Source: Pseudomonadota bacterium (GTDB taxonomy: Bacteria > Desulfobacterota > Desulfobacteria > Desulfobacterales > Desulfatibacillaceae). Taken from it: 44,148 nt of DNA. Positions 1 through 9,012 of this stretch are shown piece by piece. Location of the stretch: contig JAHJUF010000452.1 in assembly GCA_018829095.1 (NCBI GenBank), positions 1 to 44,148 of the forward strand, read 5' to 3'. The first letter of the stretch is position 1. Every line of letters starts with the position of its first letter. Below the pieces are notes generated by a model. The model saw only the letters and a list, made by a program, of their open reading frames with translations. It did not search any database and had not been told where the DNA came from. The translations under genes were made by a program, and so were the position numbers.

Positions 1-1069
1 AGCGGCCCATGAAGATCGCGCCGGCGTGTTTGATCTGTTTAGCCATAGCCTGCGGATCGGCCACCGACAGTTCCAAGTGTTCAGGCGCGATATAATTCGC
101 AACCTCGACCGCCTCGTTCAAATCACGCACCTGGATCAACGCAGCGCGGTTCGTGAGCGAGGCGGCGATGATGTCACGCCGCTCCATAGTCGGCAGCAGA
201 CGTTCGATACTCTCGCGCACGCGCTGCAGGAAACCACTATCCGGACTGACCAGGATCGGCTGTGCGTCTTCATCGTGTTCGGCCTGAGAAAACAGATCCA
301 TCGCAATCCAATCCGGATCGGTCTGTCCGTCGCAGATCACCAGGATCTCCGAAGGCCCGGCGATCATGTCGATACCCACGGACCCGGCCACCAGCTTCTT
401 GGCGATGGTCACCCAGATGTTCCCCGGCCCCACGATCACGTCCACCTTTTTGATGGTTTCCGTGCCAAAGGCCAGGGCGGCGATGCCCCAGGCGCTCCCC
501 GCCTTGTAGACCTCGCTGGCCCCGGCCCTTTTGGCGGCGGCCAGGAGATAGGGATGCACGGACCCGTCCTCCCGGGGCGGGGTCGCCACCACGATGCGTT
601 CCACCCCCGCGATGCGGGCGGGGATGCATCCCATGAGCACCGAGGACACCAGGGGTGTGCTCCCGGCCCGGCCCCCTGGTACGTAAATCCCCGCCGCATC
701 CACGGGGCGGACCAGCTGCCCGAGGAAGACCCCTTCCCGGTCCAGGGTCATCCAGGACCGGGGCGCCTGTCTCCGGTGGAAATCCTCCACTCTCGACGCG
801 GCCAGCTCCAGGGTCCGGGCGAATTCCGGGTCCAGGGAATCCAGGGCCTGGTCCATTTCCTCCGGGCTCACCTTCAGGCCCGGGGCGTCCAGGTCCGGAG
901 CGTCAAATTGGTTCACGTATCCCAACAGGGCGTGGTCCCCGTTTTTCCGGATATTCGCGAGGATGCGCTCCACCTGGCGGACCTGCCGAGTTGGAAACGC
1001 CACCCCCCGCCCCTCTATGGCTAAAAGCCTTTTTTCCGCCGCAGCGGATGGAACTTGATGGATCTTCAT
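1..1069 (-). CDS. hisD: Histidinol dehydrogenase, C-terminus cut by window edge
   Basis: HisD oxidises L-histidinol to L-histidine in two NAD+-dependent steps, the end of histidine biosynthesis in the cytosol. About 356 codons are present and the C-terminal 70-80 residues of a usual 430-residue HisD lie outside the window. The translation shows the family signature: a GGRA turn, the GxGN stretch VGPGNIW, the conserved [12 protein letters not shown] block and AEHDEDAQ with the metal-binding Gln-His region. The chosen ATG ends at 1069; an in-frame ATG five codons upstream (1084) is possible. The gene follows xerD by 47 bases on the same strand, so it may be the last gene of that run. Codon choice changes near 300-350: the C-terminal part uses CCG, CGT and AGT where the N-terminal part and neighbouring genes use CCC, CGG and TCC. 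The family is certain; the integrity of the gene is not. Confidence 0.93.
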
Positions 1070-1116: not shown

Positions 1117-2034
1117 TCAACCCCGTGGATGAAAGCGGGTGTGGATCTCCTTCAATTTCTCCCGGGCCACATGGGTGTAGATCTGGGTGGTGGCGATATC
1201 CGTATGCCCGAGCATTTCCTGGACCACCCGGAGGTCTGCGCCGCCTTCCAGAAGATGGCTGGCAAACGAGTGGCGCAGGGTATGGGGGCTAACCGTTTTA
1301 CGGATGCCCGCCGCCACGGCGTGGTCCTTGAGGCGCTTGAAAAAGTTCTGGCGCGTCATGGGCCCGCCTCCCTGGCCCACAAACAGGAACGGATGGATTT
1401 TTTTCCTGACCATGAGGGGCCGGACATTCTCCAGGTAATCCCCCGCCCGCTGGATGGCCACCTCGCCGATGGGCACGATCCGTTCCTTGGAGCCCTTTCC
1501 CATGACCCGGACAAAGCCCGCCACCAGGGACACGTCCTGGGTCCGCACGGAAATGAGTTCGGATATGCGAAGCCCAGCCCCGTATGCCAGTTCCAGCATG
1601 GCCCGGTCCCGGATCCCAAGGCGGTCCACCGGGTCCGGGGCATCCAGGAGGCGTTCCATCTCCTCCACGGACAAAACGCCCGGCAGGCTCATGCCGGCCT
1701 TGGGCAGGTCCACCAGGCGCACGGGATCCTTGGAAAGGACATTCTCCTGAACCAGAAACCGGAAAAAACCCCGGACCGAAACCAGCCGCCGGGCCCGGGT
1801 GCGTGCCCCCAGGCCCTGCTTTTGCATGGAGATGAGGTACCGCAGCACAGACGCCGTGTCCACACGGGAAAGATCAACCATGCGAATGGATTCCAGGAAG
1901 GAGGCGAACCGGGCCAGGTCCCGGGTGTAGGCTTCCAGGGTGTTGTTGGAAAGCCCCTTTTCCACCACCAGGTAATGAAAATATGGGTCCAGGAATTCGT
2001 CGATGTAGATGGGCCTTGCGGTTTTCCGGGCCAC
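1117..2034 (-). CDS. xerD: Tyrosine recombinase XerD/XerC type
   Basis: This 305-residue protein is a tyrosine site-specific recombinase of the Xer type, which resolves chromosome dimers at dif during segregation. It has the N-terminal SAM-like core-binding domain (about 10-100) and the catalytic domain (about 115-300). Catalytic residues are visible: Arg156 (GLRISEL), Lys180 (GKGSKERIVP), His251 and Arg254 (HTLRHSF), His277 (LGHTD) and nucleophile Tyr286. Length and the absence of extra domains fit the housekeeping XerC/XerD proteins rather than phage or integron integrases. The start is GTG at 2034, one base after the pepQ stop (TGA-C-GTG), with GGAG inside the end of pepQ as ribosome binding site, so translation is probably coupled. 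XerD versus XerC cannot be settled from sequence alone. Confidence 0.92.
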   Translation of the reverse strand: MARKTARPIYIDEFLDPYFHYLVVEKGLSNNTLEAYTRDLARFASFLESIRMVDLSRVDTASVLRYLISMQKQGLGARTRARRLVSVRGFFRFLVQENVLSKDPVRLVDLPKAGMSLPGVLSVEEMERLLDAPDPVDRLGIRDRAMLELAYGAGLRISELISVRTQDVSLVAGFVRVMGKGSKERIVPIGEVAIQRAGDYLENVRPLMVRKKIHPFLFVGQGGGPMTRQNFFKRLKDHAVAAGIRKTVSPHTLRHSFASHLLEGGADLRVVQEMLGHTDIATTQIYTHVAREKLKEIHTRFHPRG

Positions 2035-2035
2035 G

Positions 2036-3142
2036 TCAGAACTCCAGGACTGCGGGGAGTTCGTTCAGCACCCGGCACCCGTCCCCGGTCACGGCCACCA
2101 TGTTTTCCAGGCGCACCCCGCCCCATCCGGGGATGTAGATGCCCGGCTCCACGGTGAACACCATGCCCGGAGCCAGGAGGGTTTCCCGCATGGGCCCCAG
2201 CCGGGGGTCCTCATGGATCGCCAGGCCCACGCCATGGCCGAGGCCGTGGCCGAAAAGTCCCTCGAAACCAGCCTGGTGGATGTGCTCCCGGGCGGCAGCG
2301 TCCACCTCCCGACAGGAAACCCCGGGCCGGATCATGGCGATGGCCTTTTCCTGGGCCTGGGCCACCGTGTCCCGCACCTTTCGGAAACGGTCATCCGGGG
2401 TCCCGAGGCAGAGGGTGCGGGAAATGTCCGAGCAGTATCCACCGAGGCGCGCGCCCCAATCGAAGAGAAGGGTTTTTCCCGAGCCCACGGGCAGGGGGGT
2501 GGGAACCGCGTGGGGCATGGCCGCGTTGCCTCCCGAGGCCACGATGCAGGGGAAGGCCGCAGCATCGGCGCCCGCCTCCCGCATCCCTTTTTCCAGGTCC
2601 CAGGCCAGGTCCTTTTCCGTGAGGTCCGGGTTCAGACGGAGAATGAGGTCCGAAAAAACGGATTCAGCGATCCGAAGGCTTTGGATCATGGCCTCCACCT
2701 CCTCCTGATCCTTGATCTCCCTCAATCCCTCCACCAGAGGCGAACACGGGTGCAACTCCAACCGGCTCCCCGCCTTTTCCAAAGCCTCCTGCATCCGGTC
2801 GCGCTGGATCACGGAAACCCGGGCGGGCTCGAACCCCAGTCGGTTCAACCCGAGCCTTTTCCCGATCCCGGCCAGGGATTCGGCCAAGCCCCTCTGGTAG
2901 CAGAACACCTCGCAGAAAGGACTCTCAGTCTCGGCCTGGGTCACGTACCGGGAATCCGTGGCCAGGAGAATGCGGCCGGGGGTGACGAAGAGGGTTCCGG
3001 CCGACTCGTCGTAATGGCCATCCTCCCCGGTGAATCCCGTGAGGTAGCGCCGGTTCTCCTCCACGGAGACCATGAGGGCGTCCACCCCGGCGGACTGCAT
3101 TTTCGCCCGAAGCCGCTCGACCCGATTTTCATAAACCTGCAT
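2036..3142 (-). CDS. pepQ: Xaa-Pro aminopeptidase/dipeptidase, M24 family
   Basis: This is a cytosolic dimetal peptidase that removes residues from peptides with proline in second position. The 368-residue protein has a creatinase-like N-terminal domain (about 5-130) and a C-terminal pita-bread domain (about 145-365). The five metal ligands of family M24 are all present: Asp228 (LLFDWGA), Asp239 (CSDISRT), His303 (GLGHGVGL), Glu332 (VEPGIYI) and Glu346 (RLENMV). The start ATG at 3142 is preceded by AAGGGCG and lies 10 bases after the parA stop; the stop is one base from the xerD start. The gene therefore sits inside a co-directional run of cell-cycle genes, although the enzyme itself is a general peptidase. 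Aminopeptidase P and prolidase cannot be told apart here. Confidence 0.9.
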   Translation of the reverse strand: MQVYENRVERLRAKMQSAGVDALMVSVEENRRYLTGFTGEDGHYDESAGTLFVTPGRILLATDSRYVTQAETESPFCEVFCYQRGLAESLAGIGKRLGLNRLGFEPARVSVIQRDRMQEALEKAGSRLELHPCSPLVEGLREIKDQEEVEAMIQSLRIAESVFSDLILRLNPDLTEKDLAWDLEKGMREAGADAAAFPCIVASGGNAAMPHAVPTPLPVGSGKTLLFDWGARLGGYCSDISRTLCLGTPDDRFRKVRDTVAQAQEKAIAMIRPGVSCREVDAAAREHIHQAGFEGLFGHGLGHGVGLAIHEDPRLGPMRETLLAPGMVFTVEPGIYIPGWGGVRLENMVAVTGDGCRVLNELPAVLEF

Positions 3143-3152
3143 GGTACGCCCT

Positions 3153-3938
3153 TCAGGGTTTCCCGCCGGTCAATTCCCGGGCCAGGGCCTGGTAGTCCTT
3201 GGACCCATTGCTGGAACCGCGAAAATACACCACGGGCTTTTCGTGAAGCGCGCTTTCCGCGATGGTGGAGTTGGCCCGGATGGCCGCCTGAAACACCCGG
3301 CCCGTGAAGCGTTTGTCCTGCTGGATCTTCTCCATGATGATGCGGCTCACCCGGATGTGCCGGGCATAGAAGGTGGGCACCACGCCGCAGAGGGAAAGGC
3401 CCGGATTGACCTCCTCCCGGATGAGATCCATGGTGTCCAGGAGGTCGTCCAGGGCGGTATAGGCGTGGGGCTGGGTCTGGCAGGGAATCAGGACCTCCCG
3501 GGCAAAGGAAAAAACGTTCACCGTGAGGAGGGACAGGCTGGGGGGGGTGTCCAGGAGCAGGAAATCGTAGTCTCCTGCGATGTCCGCCAGGCAATGGAGG
3601 CGGTTTTCCCGTTCCGCCCGGTCCACCAGTTCCACCTCCGCGCCGGACAGGTCCACGTGGGAGGGGATGCAGGACAGGCGGGGCCAGGCTGTTTCCCGGA
3701 CCACTCCCCTGGGGTCGGGGCCCGGATCGCCGGTCATGAGGTCATAGAGGGTGGGCTCGCCTTCCCCCACCTTGACCCCCAGGTTCCGGGTGGCGTTGAA
3801 CTGGGGGTCCGCGTCCACCACCAGGACCTCCTTGCCCATCTTGGCCAGGGCCGCCCCCAGGTTGACCACGGTGGCGGTCTTGCCCACCCCGCCCTTCTCG
3901 TTCACCACCGCAATGATCCGGGTTTTCCTCTTGGCCAT
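3153..3938 (-). CDS. ParA/Soj-like ATPase (orphan)
   Basis: This 261-residue protein belongs to the ParA/MinD deviant Walker ATPases, which bind DNA or membrane as ATP-dependent dimers and position chromosomes, plasmids or protein complexes. The deviant Walker A motif KGGVGKT is at 15-21 with the signature lysine, VDADPQ at 41-46, and a Walker B LLLDTPPS at 127-134. I chose the ATG at 3938, preceded by a G-rich Shine-Dalgarno sequence; the upstream reading frame is open but low-complexity. No parB follows; the next gene is pepQ 10 bases downstream, and the gene before it, 38 bases upstream, is a dynamin-like GTPase. That context, and the missing ParB, suggest a specialised positioning ATPase rather than the main chromosome partition protein, but this is inference. 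Confidence 0.88.
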
Positions 3939-3976
3939 TTCTCCCCCCCTTCCCCTGGTGAAGGATCGCCCGGACT

Positions 3977-6235
3977 TCAGGCTTCCCCGCCCGGACCCGC
4001 CGGGCCCGGGCCTGCGAGTTCCCGCCGGACGGCATCCAGTTTCCTGCGCACCTCCCTCAAATCCCATTCCAGCCCCTCCAGAAGCTGGCCCGCCTCCTTG
4101 CGCTCCTGGTCCTTGGTGTCCAGGAGCCCCCGGCTTTCCTCCAGCCCGGAGGTGAAACCCTGGAACCGTTCGTCCAGGTCCTTCATAAGGGCCTGGGCCC
4201 CAAGATCCAGGAGGCGGTACAGGTATTGAAACTTCAGGTTCTCCTTGAAATCCATGAATTGTTCGGCCAGGGAATGGAGGGTTTCCTCCTTCATGCGGCG
4301 CACCGCGTCCCGGATGGCCCGGGCCGAGGAAAGATCCGCGTCCGGCCGTTTCTTGGCAAAGAGTTTCAGGACCGCGTGGAACGCCCGGTAGGCTCCCAGG
4401 CGGAACACGGCCTCGGTGCGGATCCGGGCGGAATACTTCAGGGCGGAGCGAAGGGGGGGCATGGTCAGGCCATGTACCCGTTTGACCTCTCCCAAATTCA
4501 GGCGCAGAGGCTCGGGATCGGGCTCCCTCTCCCCGCCTGGCGATTCCATGCCTTCCAGGATGCGGTTGAACCGCCTGGCAGCTTCCCGCATCATGATTTG
4601 GTAGGGTTCGCCGGATTTTTCAATGAGCCTGGCGATGTCATCTTCCTTGCGTTTCACAAAACCGGCCACCATGGGGTTGACAGATTCAGCCATGTGCCGG
4701 TCCAGGGCGATTTTCAACTCCTGGAAGGCAGCGTGGACCGCCAGCGTGAAACGGCGATTCTCCAGGCCCTCCAGGTTCGGGGAGAACTGATGAATGAATT
4801 TCCGGGCCCCGTCCAGGATCTCCCCGGCAGCGGGGTCGAAATAGCGGTCTGTCTCCCAGCCCAGGGACGCCTGGGCCTTCCGGTTCACGCCGGCCAGGGC
4901 GTCCCGGATCATGGCCCGGATCTGGTCCAGACCCTCCCGCTCCTTGTGCAGGCGGGCAAGGGCCTTGTCCATCTGGGCCCGGTCCCTGGAAAGAAGGTCC
5001 CGGTGAAGCCGCACCCAGTCCGTGGCAGCGGTGGCCATGACCTGGAGCCGCCCCGCCTTGTTCCCCAAAACCAGGGCCGCCTGGTCCTCCAAGAGACGCT
5101 TGTGGAGCAGGGCCTTGAGGCGGCTGTTCTCGATAGCAAGAAACTCCAGGAATTCCTTTTCCCCGTTCCATTGGTCCATGCGCGCCGATTCCCTGGGAGG
5201 CATGTCCGGCCCCAGATTTTCCAGGAGATTGTAGAGGGCGCTCACAGCCACCACCTCGGGTTCAGGACGGATGAGGGAAATTTCGTTGGCCACCCGGGCC
5301 AATAGGTTTTTAACGTCCTCCAGATTTTCGTGCTCGGAGATATCCACGTTCACCACGAACAGAATGTTTTCCAGAAGGCCCATTTCCCGGAGCAGGCTCA
5401 GGAACCGGATGTCCGCCTGACGCAGGCCCGTGCGCGAAGACACGACGTACAGAATAAGGTGGACGTGGAAAAGATAGTCCTCGATCATCACCAGATGGAG
5501 GGGGTTGGGCGAGTCGCTCCCCTGGCAGTCCGCGATTTCCACCCGGTCCTTCCACTCCTCCGGGCCGGGGAGGGAAAGGAGAACATCCTTGAGATACGTG
5601 GCCAGGTTCTCATCCCCCACGAACTCCTTGTGAAGGGGAAAATCCTGGCCTTCGAAGATCCTCCGGACCGGTTCGGACCCCACGATGTCCCGGACTTTTT
5701 CATACCCGGCCAGAAAGGCCGAAAGGACCATGGCGTTCATGCTGCGGGTGTCCTGGGCGATGAGCTGGTCCGCCCCTAACTGGGAAAGGGCTCGTGCCAG
5801 TTCCTTGCGGTCGCTTTCCAGGCGGATGTCCACCCCCTTCTCCGGCCGGGCGGCCACAAAGGAAGGCACCAGGGCCAGGGCGTCCCCGATCTCCTGGTTG
5901 ACATCATCCCAGGTCTTGAACTCCAGAATGGCCATAGGATGATCCCCCGGCTGGATGCGGGTGACGATGGAGGTGATGACCCCGGCTCCGCGTTTCAGGT
6001 AATCACCGCCGAACAGAGAGTTGGTCAGGGTGCTCTTTCCGGACTTGATGGGCCCCACCACGGCCATGCGCACCAGGTTTTTCTCCTCCTGGTTCCGCAG
6101 GCGCTCCAGGGTCTTCTCCCACTCCAGAAAGGGCCTCCCCTGAATTCCCGGCAGGAAGGAAACAGCATCAAAAACCTCGCCCAGGCGGGTCTCGATCTCG
6201 TTCAGCTTTTCAATGGTGCGGCTGGGATCGTCCAT
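3977..6235 (-). CDS. Bacterial dynamin-like GTPase
   Basis: This is a large GTPase of about 752 residues of the dynamin superfamily. Known bacterial members remodel or fuse membranes; the substrate here is unknown. The GTPase domain shows G1 GPIKSGKST at 61-69, a G2 threonine in GVITSIVT near 88, G3 as DCQG at 236-239 (usual DxPG) and G4 as NVD at 296-298. The long helical remainder (about 400-750) has an Arg/Lys-rich stretch near 640-690 and a coiled-coil-like C-terminus. I see no clear transmembrane helix, so membrane contact would need an amphipathic paddle. Start: the ATG at 6235 (MDDPSRT) fits the start of similarity, although upstream codons are open and the Shine-Dalgarno is weak. It is first in the run leading to parA, pepQ and xerD, 38 bases before parA. 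Confidence 0.85.
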
Positions 6236-6487: not shown

Positions 6488-7243
6488 ATGGCCTTCATGT
6501 ACGAAAACATACGCATTCGGGCGCACGAAATAGCGGCCCATTATCCCCAGCCGGCCTTTTACCGGGACTTGGCCGGAAGCCTTGCCCTGTCGGCCCGGCT
6601 TCTGAAAAACGATCCGTTCCTGGTGGCGGTTTACGAATACGTGGCCAGCCGCCTGGAGAACGACTTCGGGCACGGCCTGGACCACGTGACCAAGGTCACC
6701 GTGGATGCCGGGGCCCTGATGCACGCCGAAGCCCGGCAATCGGGCCAGGACCCCGAAACCACCGGCCGATGGATCGTCCTGGCCCAATGCGCGGGCCTTC
6801 TCCACGACATCAGGAGAAAGGAAAAGGATCACGCGGCCAGGGGGGCCGAAACCGCAGAGGAAGTGCTTCGCTCCTTTCCCCTGGACCGTTTCGAGATCGA
6901 GGACGTCTGCCAGGCCATCCGCAACCACGAGGCGTTCAAGCTCCCCACTCCGGTGGACACCCCCAGGGGACAGGCGATTTCCGACTGCCTTTACGACGCG
7001 GACAAGTTTCGCTGGGGCCCGGACAACTTCACGGACACGGTGTGGCATATGGCTTGTTTTTTTCAGGTGCCCCTGGAGGAGTTCCTGCGGCGCTACCCGG
7101 AAGGGGTGAAAAGCGTGGCCCGCATCAAGGAGACCTTCCGCTCCGAAACCGGCAGGAAATACGGCCCCCAATTCATTGATATAGGCATGGACATGGGCAG
7201 GGAAATTTACGACCTGATCCTGGCCGAGTTTGTTTCCCCATGA
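6488..7243 (+). CDS. HD-domain phosphohydrolase
   Basis: This 251-residue soluble protein carries an HD domain, a metal-dependent phosphohydrolase fold. The metal ligands expected for the family are visible: His66 in GLDHV, His106-Asp107 in LLHDIRR, His147 in RNHEAF and Asp residues in YDADKF (170-172). The fold resembles predicted HD hydrolases acting on nucleotides or small phosphoesters; the substrate cannot be read from sequence. Start: ATG at 6488 or 6497 (MYENIR); neither has a good Shine-Dalgarno sequence. Its TGA overlaps the ATG of the following Na+/Pi cotransporter by four bases (ATGA), so the two are translationally coupled and probably functionally linked. The 252-base divergent spacer upstream holds a small GCGCC/GGCGC hairpin (6449-6463) and no promoter I can call. 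Confidence 0.85.
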   Translation: MAFMYENIRIRAHEIAAHYPQPAFYRDLAGSLALSARLLKNDPFLVAVYEYVASRLENDFGHGLDHVTKVTVDAGALMHAEARQSGQDPETTGRWIVLAQCAGLLHDIRRKEKDHAARGAETAEEVLRSFPLDRFEIEDVCQAIRNHEAFKLPTPVDTPRGQAISDCLYDADKFRWGPDNFTDTVWHMACFFQVPLEEFLRRYPEGVKSVARIKETFRSETGRKYGPQFIDIGMDMGREIYDLILAEFVSP

Positions 7244-9012
7244 GGCTCTCCTTGCACCGATCCAGACCCATCCTCCTGAACAAACTCGCCCTGGCCGCCC
7301 TGCCCGTCCTGGCCCTGACCGCTCTGGGCGCATCCTCCGGAAAATTCTCTCTGGCCTCGGCGGAATTCCTTGGGGGGCTCCTGGGCGGACTGGCCCTTTT
7401 TCTTTTTGGGATCGACCTGCTTTCGGAGAACATGCAAAAAACGGCTGGCAACGGGATGCGGGCCTTTCTCGCGGCCATGACCCGGAGCCGGTGGTCCAGC
7501 CTTTTCGCGGGCCTGGTGGTCACGGTGCTCATGCAGAGCTCCAGCGCCACCACAGTCCTTTTGGTGAGCTTCTCCCAGGCTCACCTGGTGAATGCCGTAC
7601 AGAGCGTGGGGGTGATCCTGGGCTCCAACATCGGCACCACCATGACCACCCAGCTCATCGCTTTCAAAATCACGGATTATTCCCTCCTCATCGTGGCGGC
7701 CGGGTATCTCTTCGCCACCCTGTCCAGGAACCGGCGGGCCATCCTCATCGGCTACGCCATCACCGGCGTGGGCTTCATCTTTTTCGGCATGCACCTCATG
7801 AGCGGGGCCATGAATCCCTTGAGGAGCGAACCCTGGTTCGCCGAACTTCTGCTTCACCTGAAAAATCCCCTGGTGGGCATCCTGGCCGCCGCAGCCATGA
7901 CCGCCGTGATCCAGAGCAGCGCGGCCTTCACCGGCATCATCATCGTCCTGGGCCAGCAGGGCCTTATGACCCTGGAAACGAGCATCCCCCTCATCCTGGG
8001 AGCCAACGTGGGGACCTGCGCCACGGCCCTTCTGGCTTCCATGAAGGCCTCCCGGGAAGCCAAGCGCGTGGCTCTGATCCACGTGATCTTCAATCTGGCC
8101 GGGGTGATCCTGTTCTTGCCCTTTGTGGACCAGCTGGCCCACCTTACCCGGGTGATTTCACCCCCGGGGGGCACATCCGCCGCAAACCTTCCCCGGCAGA
8201 TTGCCAATGCCCACACCCTGTTCAACGTCCTGGCCTGCCTGGGTTTCCTGCCCTTCACCAAACGCCTGGCCGCACTGGCGGGCATGATCCTGCCCGTGAC
8301 TGCGGAAGAGTTCAAGGAAATGGCCCTGCCCAAGTACCTGGACCCCTCCCTCCTGGGAAACCCGTCCCTGGCCCTGGAGCGGGTGCGCCTGGAACTCATC
8401 TACATCGGGGAGATCGTGGAGGGCATGATCGCCGACACCATGGAGGGTTTTCTGAAAAAGGATTCGAAACGCATCCAGCGGGTGGTGAAAGCGGACGACA
8501 AGGTGGATGGGCTTATCGAGCAGACCAACGCCTATCTGACCAGCGTGTTGCGCACGCCCCTGTCCGCCGCGCAGGTGGACGAGGCCCGGGTGCTGGCCGA
8601 CATCCTGTCGGAGATGGACCACCTGGCCGATCTCCTGGAAACCAGCACCAGCCGCATCGTGCTGCGCAAAATCGAGGACAGGGTGTACATGAGCGAGGAA
8701 GGAATCCAGGAAGTGGATGCGCTTTTCAAGGGCGTCCTGGCCGCCTTTTCCGGAGCCATGCGTTTTGTGGCTGAACCGAATCTGGACGCCCTGGCCGCCC
8801 TCAACCGCTCCAAGGCCACCCTGGAGGAGATTGAGCAGGCCTCCCGGCACATCCATTACGAAAGGCTGGCCGCCGGAATTCCTGAGTCGGTGGAGAGCCA
8901 CCAGTTCCACATGGACATGCTGGACCAACTCCGCATTATGCGGGCCTACATCAGCGAAGTCATCAAGCAGGGGGAACGGTTCCTGCGGGAATACCAACAG
9001 GCGGTGGGATAG
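7240..9012 (+). CDS. Na+/phosphate cotransporter with PhoU-like domain
   Basis: This 590-residue inner-membrane protein of the NptA/YjbB Na+/Pi cotransporter family moves phosphate with sodium (direction not known). The inverted family repeat is clear: QSSSATT at 99-105 with GSNIGTTMTT at 128-137, and QSSAAFTG at 225-232 with GANVGTCATALL at 254-265. These lie among about eight to ten hydrophobic segments between residues 10 and 335. From about 360 onward the protein is a soluble helical region of PhoU type, thought in this family to act as a regulatory domain. The ATG overlaps the stop of the HD-domain gene. The YjbB/NptA family is certain; whether it imports or exports phosphate is not shown. 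Confidence 0.92.
   Translation: MRLSLHRSRPILLNKLALAALPVLALTALGASSGKFSLASAEFLGGLLGGLALFLFGIDLLSENMQKTAGNGMRAFLAAMTRSRWSSLFAGLVVTVLMQSSSATTVLLVSFSQAHLVNAVQSVGVILGSNIGTTMTTQLIAFKITDYSLLIVAAGYLFATLSRNRRAILIGYAITGVGFIFFGMHLMSGAMNPLRSEPWFAELLLHLKNPLVGILAAAAMTAVIQSSAAFTGIIIVLGQQGLMTLETSIPLILGANVGTCATALLASMKASREAKRVALIHVIFNLAGVILFLPFVDQLAHLTRVISPPGGTSAANLPRQIANAHTLFNVLACLGFLPFTKRLAALAGMILPVTAEEFKEMALPKYLDPSLLGNPSLALERVRLELIYIGEIVEGMIADTMEGFLKKDSKRIQRVVKADDKVDGLIEQTNAYLTSVLRTPLSAAQVDEARVLADILSEMDHLADLLETSTSRIVLRKIEDRVYMSEEGIQEVDALFKGVLAAFSGAMRFVAEPNLDALAALNRSKATLEEIEQASRHIHYERLAAGIPESVESHQFHMDMLDQLRIMRAYISEVIKQGERFLREYQQAVG

Follow-up and report, generated by a model that had tools for sequence, protein, structure and literature searches.

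A dynamin-like GTPase gene and an orphan parA gene form a conserved pair in the Desulfobacterales

The window analysed here is the whole 44,148-nucleotide stretch of contig JAHJUF010000452.1 (assembly GCA_018829095.1), from a bacterium of the Desulfatibacillaceae, order Desulfobacterales. It encodes a dynamin-like GTPase (dlp) and, next on the same strand, an orphan ParA ATPase (parA). The dlp-parA pairing is real and old, and the two genes form a conserved cassette of the Desulfobacterales. Order-wide counts were made in 173 Desulfobacterales genomes with a completeness of at least 85%. The dlp gene was found in 141 of them, the ParA of this subfamily in 76, and both in 70. The two genes are adjacent, on the same strand and with dlp first, in 66 of these 70 genomes; contig ends account for two of the remaining four (G002 and G082), and the genes are truly apart in the other two (G042 and G134, both of family f35). 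The dlp stop and the parA start overlap by 4 bases at loci L035 and L041, and lie 2 bases apart at L040. Among 80 named loci, 47 have the ParA, 26 have no ParA, and seven end too soon. The preliminary description of this DNA had reckoned with an accidental link should the genes adjoin only in this genome; the adjacency is conserved far beyond it, and is kept when the flanking genes change.

Outside the Desulfobacterales, dlp occurs in a minority of genomes, and the ParA subfamily was found in none (296 genomes across the phylum). All 76 members of the subfamily match at E 1e-110 or better; the best matches outside the order fall to E 6e-84, the level of Soj. No constant partner of the dynamin was seen outside the order. 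The neighbours there, named from sequence, were yajC-like, dprA-like and topA-like genes (L207, L208, and L212), or miaA/rluD-like genes.

The preservation of the pair was compared with that of its neighbours. A common block in many families runs from yqgE through dlp and parA to hisB and has two opposite-strand members: a small Cys-rich open reading frame (ORF) between yqgE and dlp, and ycaO or copA between parA and hisB. The names yqgE, ycaO, copA, and hisB were read from sequence. In the neighbour control, yqgE was sought in 64 genomes with the dlp-parA pair and located in 56. It adjoins dlp in 36 of the 56 and lies elsewhere in 20; dlp and parA are still adjacent in all 20. In the gap-free genome G155, yqgE lies 570 kb off, and contig breaks could explain some of the other displaced cases. 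As an obligate partner, yqgE was rejected, being adjacent in just 36 of 56. The pair was also kept where the flanks were swapped, in the Desulfatibacillaceae and in G046. Sequence distances for dlp track those for parA, with correlations of 0.85-0.93 and partial correlations of 0.75-0.82 given yqgE, ycaO or hisB; for the value of 0.75 given yqgE, none of 999 permutations was as high. The dlp distances also partially correlate with those of ycaO and hisB. The distance correlation is supportive of the dlp-parA link, yet it is not independent of shared descent.

The dlp protein is assigned to the dynamin superfamily by its predicted fold and its remaining motifs, despite an odd G4 motif. Its Dynamin_N match scores 49 bits, against the Pfam cut-off of 27. 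The AlphaFold model, built with 69 aligned sequences (mean predicted local distance difference test score 81.6, predicted template modelling score 0.77), shows a G domain (about residues 53-345) followed by long helical bundles, which form the neck and trunk (360-562 and 634-740). Residues 563-633, of lower confidence, form the trunk tip between the long trunk helices 496-562 and 634-695. A Foldseek search with the model identified the bacterial dynamin-like protein BDLP (2j69) as the best solved fold (E 5.4e-17, template modelling scores 0.57/0.63); the other top solved folds were SynDLP, IniA, and Cj-DLP1/2. By sequence, matches to the named relatives DynA, LeoA, and LeoBC are weak. A sequence match of the trunk to the PACSIN F-BAR domain was judged to be a chance coiled-coil match. 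The preliminary description had called the 752-residue protein free of transmembrane helices, and this was borne out, as the top 19-residue hydropathy is 1.52 and located in the G domain. The tip matches in position the lipid-binding tip of BDLP and Cj-DLP2 (PMC6104087), and it is basic across the whole dlp family, with a median net charge of +7. BDLP1 of Nostoc punctiforme (2j69/2j68) is likewise soluble and has the same architecture of G domain, neck, and trunk, its long trunk helices also being joined by a tip; however, identity is 14%, the tip of dlp is basic and not a demonstrated hydrophobic paddle, and no second dynamin gene adjoins dlp. In the 69 sequences, G1 (GxIKSGKS), G2 (T88/T92), and G3 (DCQG) are invariant or nearly so. 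At G4 (residues 295-298), the canonical (N/T)KxD found in BDLP1 is replaced by [VIL]-N-[C]-D, in which N296 and D298 do not vary. With this deviation, the specificity for guanine may be altered.

The window ParA has the motifs NEKGGVGKT, DxDPQ, and DTPPS-type, which are invariant in its subfamily. In 22 subfamily members, the deviant Walker A (KGGVGKT), Walker A', and Walker B vary little or not at all, and Arg 221 is invariant. An FDxRT stretch corresponds in the alignment to the DNA-binding Arg region of Soj, and 21 of the 22 members have its Arg. The chromosomal Soj of the ParABS systems is the nearest relative, and the ATPase motifs are kept. However, the window protein belongs to a separate subfamily: members of the subfamily share 47-64% identity with one another and about 35-42% with chromosomal Soj, and the scores of the two groups are clearly separated. 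No parB was found near the window parA, which therefore lacks the adjacency of a ParABS system. The only strong ParB match in the source genome lies on contig C377, beside another ParA (Soj), in agreement with the preliminary description of a ParA without ParB. Since this Soj has its ParB elsewhere in the genome, the window ParA is an additional, ParB-less copy.

Gene neighbourhood is an accepted route to the cargos of ParA/MinD ATPases (PMC10241942). Following that logic, the locus resembles those of McdA-type orphan ParA/MinD proteins, in which a ParA without ParB is encoded beside its presumed cargo; the difference is that no McdB-like adaptor was seen at dlp-parA. No other conserved parA-linked gene was seen at the compared loci, and an adaptor encoded elsewhere is possible. 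From the observed pairing, fold, and motifs, we propose that ParA sets the place or the timing, relative to the nucleoid, at which the dynamin or a membrane site marked by it assembles. The dynamin would be a soluble mechano-GTPase of the BDLP type whose basic trunk tip binds membranes reversibly. The Soj-type ParA would most likely bind the nucleoid as an ATP dimer and work with a partner other than ParB. It might contact the dynamin as a helper and adjust the place or time of its assembly. The dynamin would retain its basic activity without ParA, as is suggested by the many genomes that carry the dynamin alone, and each protein would have some function of its own. As the whole explanation this is quite possible, and we would put it a little short of even.

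Several observations weigh against this proposal. The dlp gene occurs without the subfamily ParA in 71 Desulfobacterales genomes, and on the dlp tree the presence of ParA changes at least eight times, six of these being forced by well-supported branches. In four genomes (G156, G092, G100, and G151), dlp was cleanly deleted and an intact parA stands in place. The small ORF is 80-200 bases from parA in G156, G100, and G151. In G092, parA comes after lpxB, at a locus that reads lpxB, dlp, and parA in G046 of the same genus (g43; L182, L044). In G135, parA stands alone and elsewhere. Because parA stays in place after the deletion of dlp, ParA has a useful function without this dynamin, although these genomes carry other Dynamin_N proteins. 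Nothing else speaks as strongly against a strict pair of cargo and positioner. With 71 genomes carrying only dlp and four carrying only an in-place parA, neither gene strictly needs the other. A ParA-linked signature was sought in the lengths, end charges, and alignment columns of 44 dynamins with ParA and 21 without; there was no clear signal, with one column specific to the former and two to the latter. A basic N-terminal tail that might activate ParA was not found in the dynamin, whose first 40 residues carry a net negative charge whether or not ParA is present. In the window ParA itself, residues 193-194 are R-H where 21 of the 22 subfamily members have the x-R of FDxRT. Finally, part of the dlp-parA synteny is simple inheritance, because the opposite-strand genes around the pair are conserved too. 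The idea of the preliminary description that ParA places the dynamin thus stands in part: adjacency in 66 of 70 genomes speaks for a non-accidental link, whereas the placement itself is weakened by the dlp-only and parA-only genomes and by the missing ParA-specific tail or surface.

The same observations would be accounted for if dlp and parA were conserved neighbours without contact, co-transcribed and inherited in an old syntenic block, and serving separate pathways. The loss of each gene while the other stays (at least four cases for the in-place parA), the conserved opposite-strand neighbours, and the lack of an interaction signature in the dynamin are all consistent with this. However, an inherited block alone does not fit well with the neighbour control, in which the pair outlasts the displacement of yqgE, nor with the replaced flanks in the Desulfatibacillaceae and G046 and the partial distance correlation. 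We regard this explanation as somewhat unlikely, and a serious one.

Another explanation is nucleoid partition, with the dynamin acting like CrfC (RdcA) of Escherichia coli, ParA being a second chromosome-positioning ATPase, and membranes not being the main target. CrfC is soluble and has a similar N-terminal helix and G domain; it works on nucleoid positioning, marks the nucleoid poles, and has no membrane-binding motif (PMC6374313). Its alignment with the dlp family profile spans residues 10-353 and takes in the N-terminal helix ahead of the P-loop (E 9.5e-6, probability 83%), and the Soj-like character of ParA would also fit. However, the similarity is moderate and does not reach beyond the G-domain half. 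The N-terminal consensus of the dlp family has no conserved counterpart of 41-QLALP, through which CrfC binds the clamp (PMC6374313), and the neighbouring gene in E. coli is rdcB instead of parA. Moreover, the basic tip at the paddle position favours a membrane target, and the genome already has a Soj-ParB pair. Nucleoid partition is the other main rival, and an improbable one.

A role in phage defence, with the dynamin as a LeoBC-type or DynA-type membrane-protective GTPase, is very unlikely. The LeoA/LeoBC and Cj-DLP1/2 proteins are bacterial dynamin-like GTPases too, and PADLOC matches dlp weakly with LeoA (E 1.1e-9) and with LeoBC (E 3.3e-7) over part of the G domain and the trunk. However, their usual partner is a second dynamin gene (PMC6104087), whereas the neighbour of dlp is ParA. 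Moreover, defence islands are patchy, whereas dlp is broadly conserved; most genomes of the order have one copy of it, among housekeeping genes. Least probable of all, and largely refuted by the gene distribution, is the link to division hinted at in the preliminary description, in which dlp, parA, pepQ, and xerD would be one unit for the septum and chromosome-dimer resolution: the tight gaps before pepQ and xerD and the same four-gene run in family members G003, G005, G006, and G008 would fit it, but pepQ and xerD follow only within the Desulfatibacillaceae, xerD in only part of that family, and are absent from the locus in other families; in both Desulfatibacillum genomes, the ortholog of XerD is encoded away from the locus.

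No earlier account of a dynamin that partners a ParA was found in the literature covered, which left out most subscription journals and preprints, and a dynamin is not mentioned among the ParA/MinD cargos listed by gene neighbourhood (PMC10241942). If the pair works together, a membrane-remodelling GTPase would join the cargos or partners of the ParA/MinD ATPases, and there would be a concrete candidate for the membrane-shaping machinery of sulfate-reducing bacteria. The Desulfobacterota have cristae-like invaginations (pera), for which the building proteins are unknown (PMC9764997). The dlp-parA pair is a candidate for such pera-type machinery, while nothing in the data ties it to those membranes. 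In the boldest form of the proposal, the dynamin is positioned by ParA and gives internal membranes such as pera their shape and place, which would make this the first ParA/MinD system with a membrane-remodelling GTPase as cargo; this is a long shot. The pair is present in cultured Desulfatibacillum alkenivorans, Desulfosarcina alkanivorans, and Desulfatitalea alkaliphila, and is therefore testable.

Table 1. Features of the dlp-parA gene run in the window.
Feature	Position	Strand	Basis
dlp, soluble bacterial dynamin-like GTPase, 752 aa	6235-3977	minus	Dynamin_N E 8.6e-13; AlphaFold; Foldseek
dlp-parA spacer, 38 bases	3939..3976	minus	purine-rich Shine-Dalgarno-like GGGGGGGAGAA ahead of parA ATG; no terminator-like site
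parA, orphan Soj-like ParA ATPase, 261 aa	3938-3153	minus	AAA_31 E 3.3e-48; PDB best match 8ray E 6e-46
pepQ-like M24 peptidase, 368 aa, bystander	3142-2036	minus	Peptidase_M24 E 2.5e-67; distribution
xerD, tyrosine recombinase, 305 aa, bystander	2034-1117	minus	Phage_integrase E 1.5e-49; TIGR02225 368 bits, cut-off 329.6
hisD-like gene (histidinol dehydrogenase), next in run, truncated by contig end	1..1069	minus	named from translation

As summarized in Table 1, the genes run in one direction. The ORF coordinates give gaps of 38, 10, and 1 bases between dlp, parA, pepQ, and xerD; the run and its gaps had been described before, and the coordinates are exact to the base. The start of dlp was placed at 6235, since M1 is conserved in at least 90% of the relatives, though the frame is open to 6382. 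A terminator scan of the dlp-parA spacer found no terminator-like site. Because the spacer also has a ribosome-binding-like stretch, co-transcription of dlp and parA is plausible. The source genome is 3.6 Mb in size and 87% complete, and the window is one of its contigs.

In most Desulfobacterales, the opposite strand immediately upstream of dlp carries a small Cys-/Lys-rich ORF of about 63-90 aa (NPECPLYNPxNCKEYYNPxLCAFAKKDK). Examples are L039:6328-6594, L041:12116-12388, and L111 near 766. In G006, the ORF has kept its place next to dlp although yqgE is elsewhere. In the window, an HD-domain gene that is divergent from dlp overlaps a gene for a Na+/Pi cotransporter with a PhoU domain by 4 bases (6488-9012). 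In the 3' part of the hisD-like gene (window 1-320), the third-position guanine-cytosine (GC) content falls from 0.82-0.92 to 0.62-0.72 over the last ~320 bases while the frame is still open, which is possibly due to a chimeric contig end or a local change of composition.

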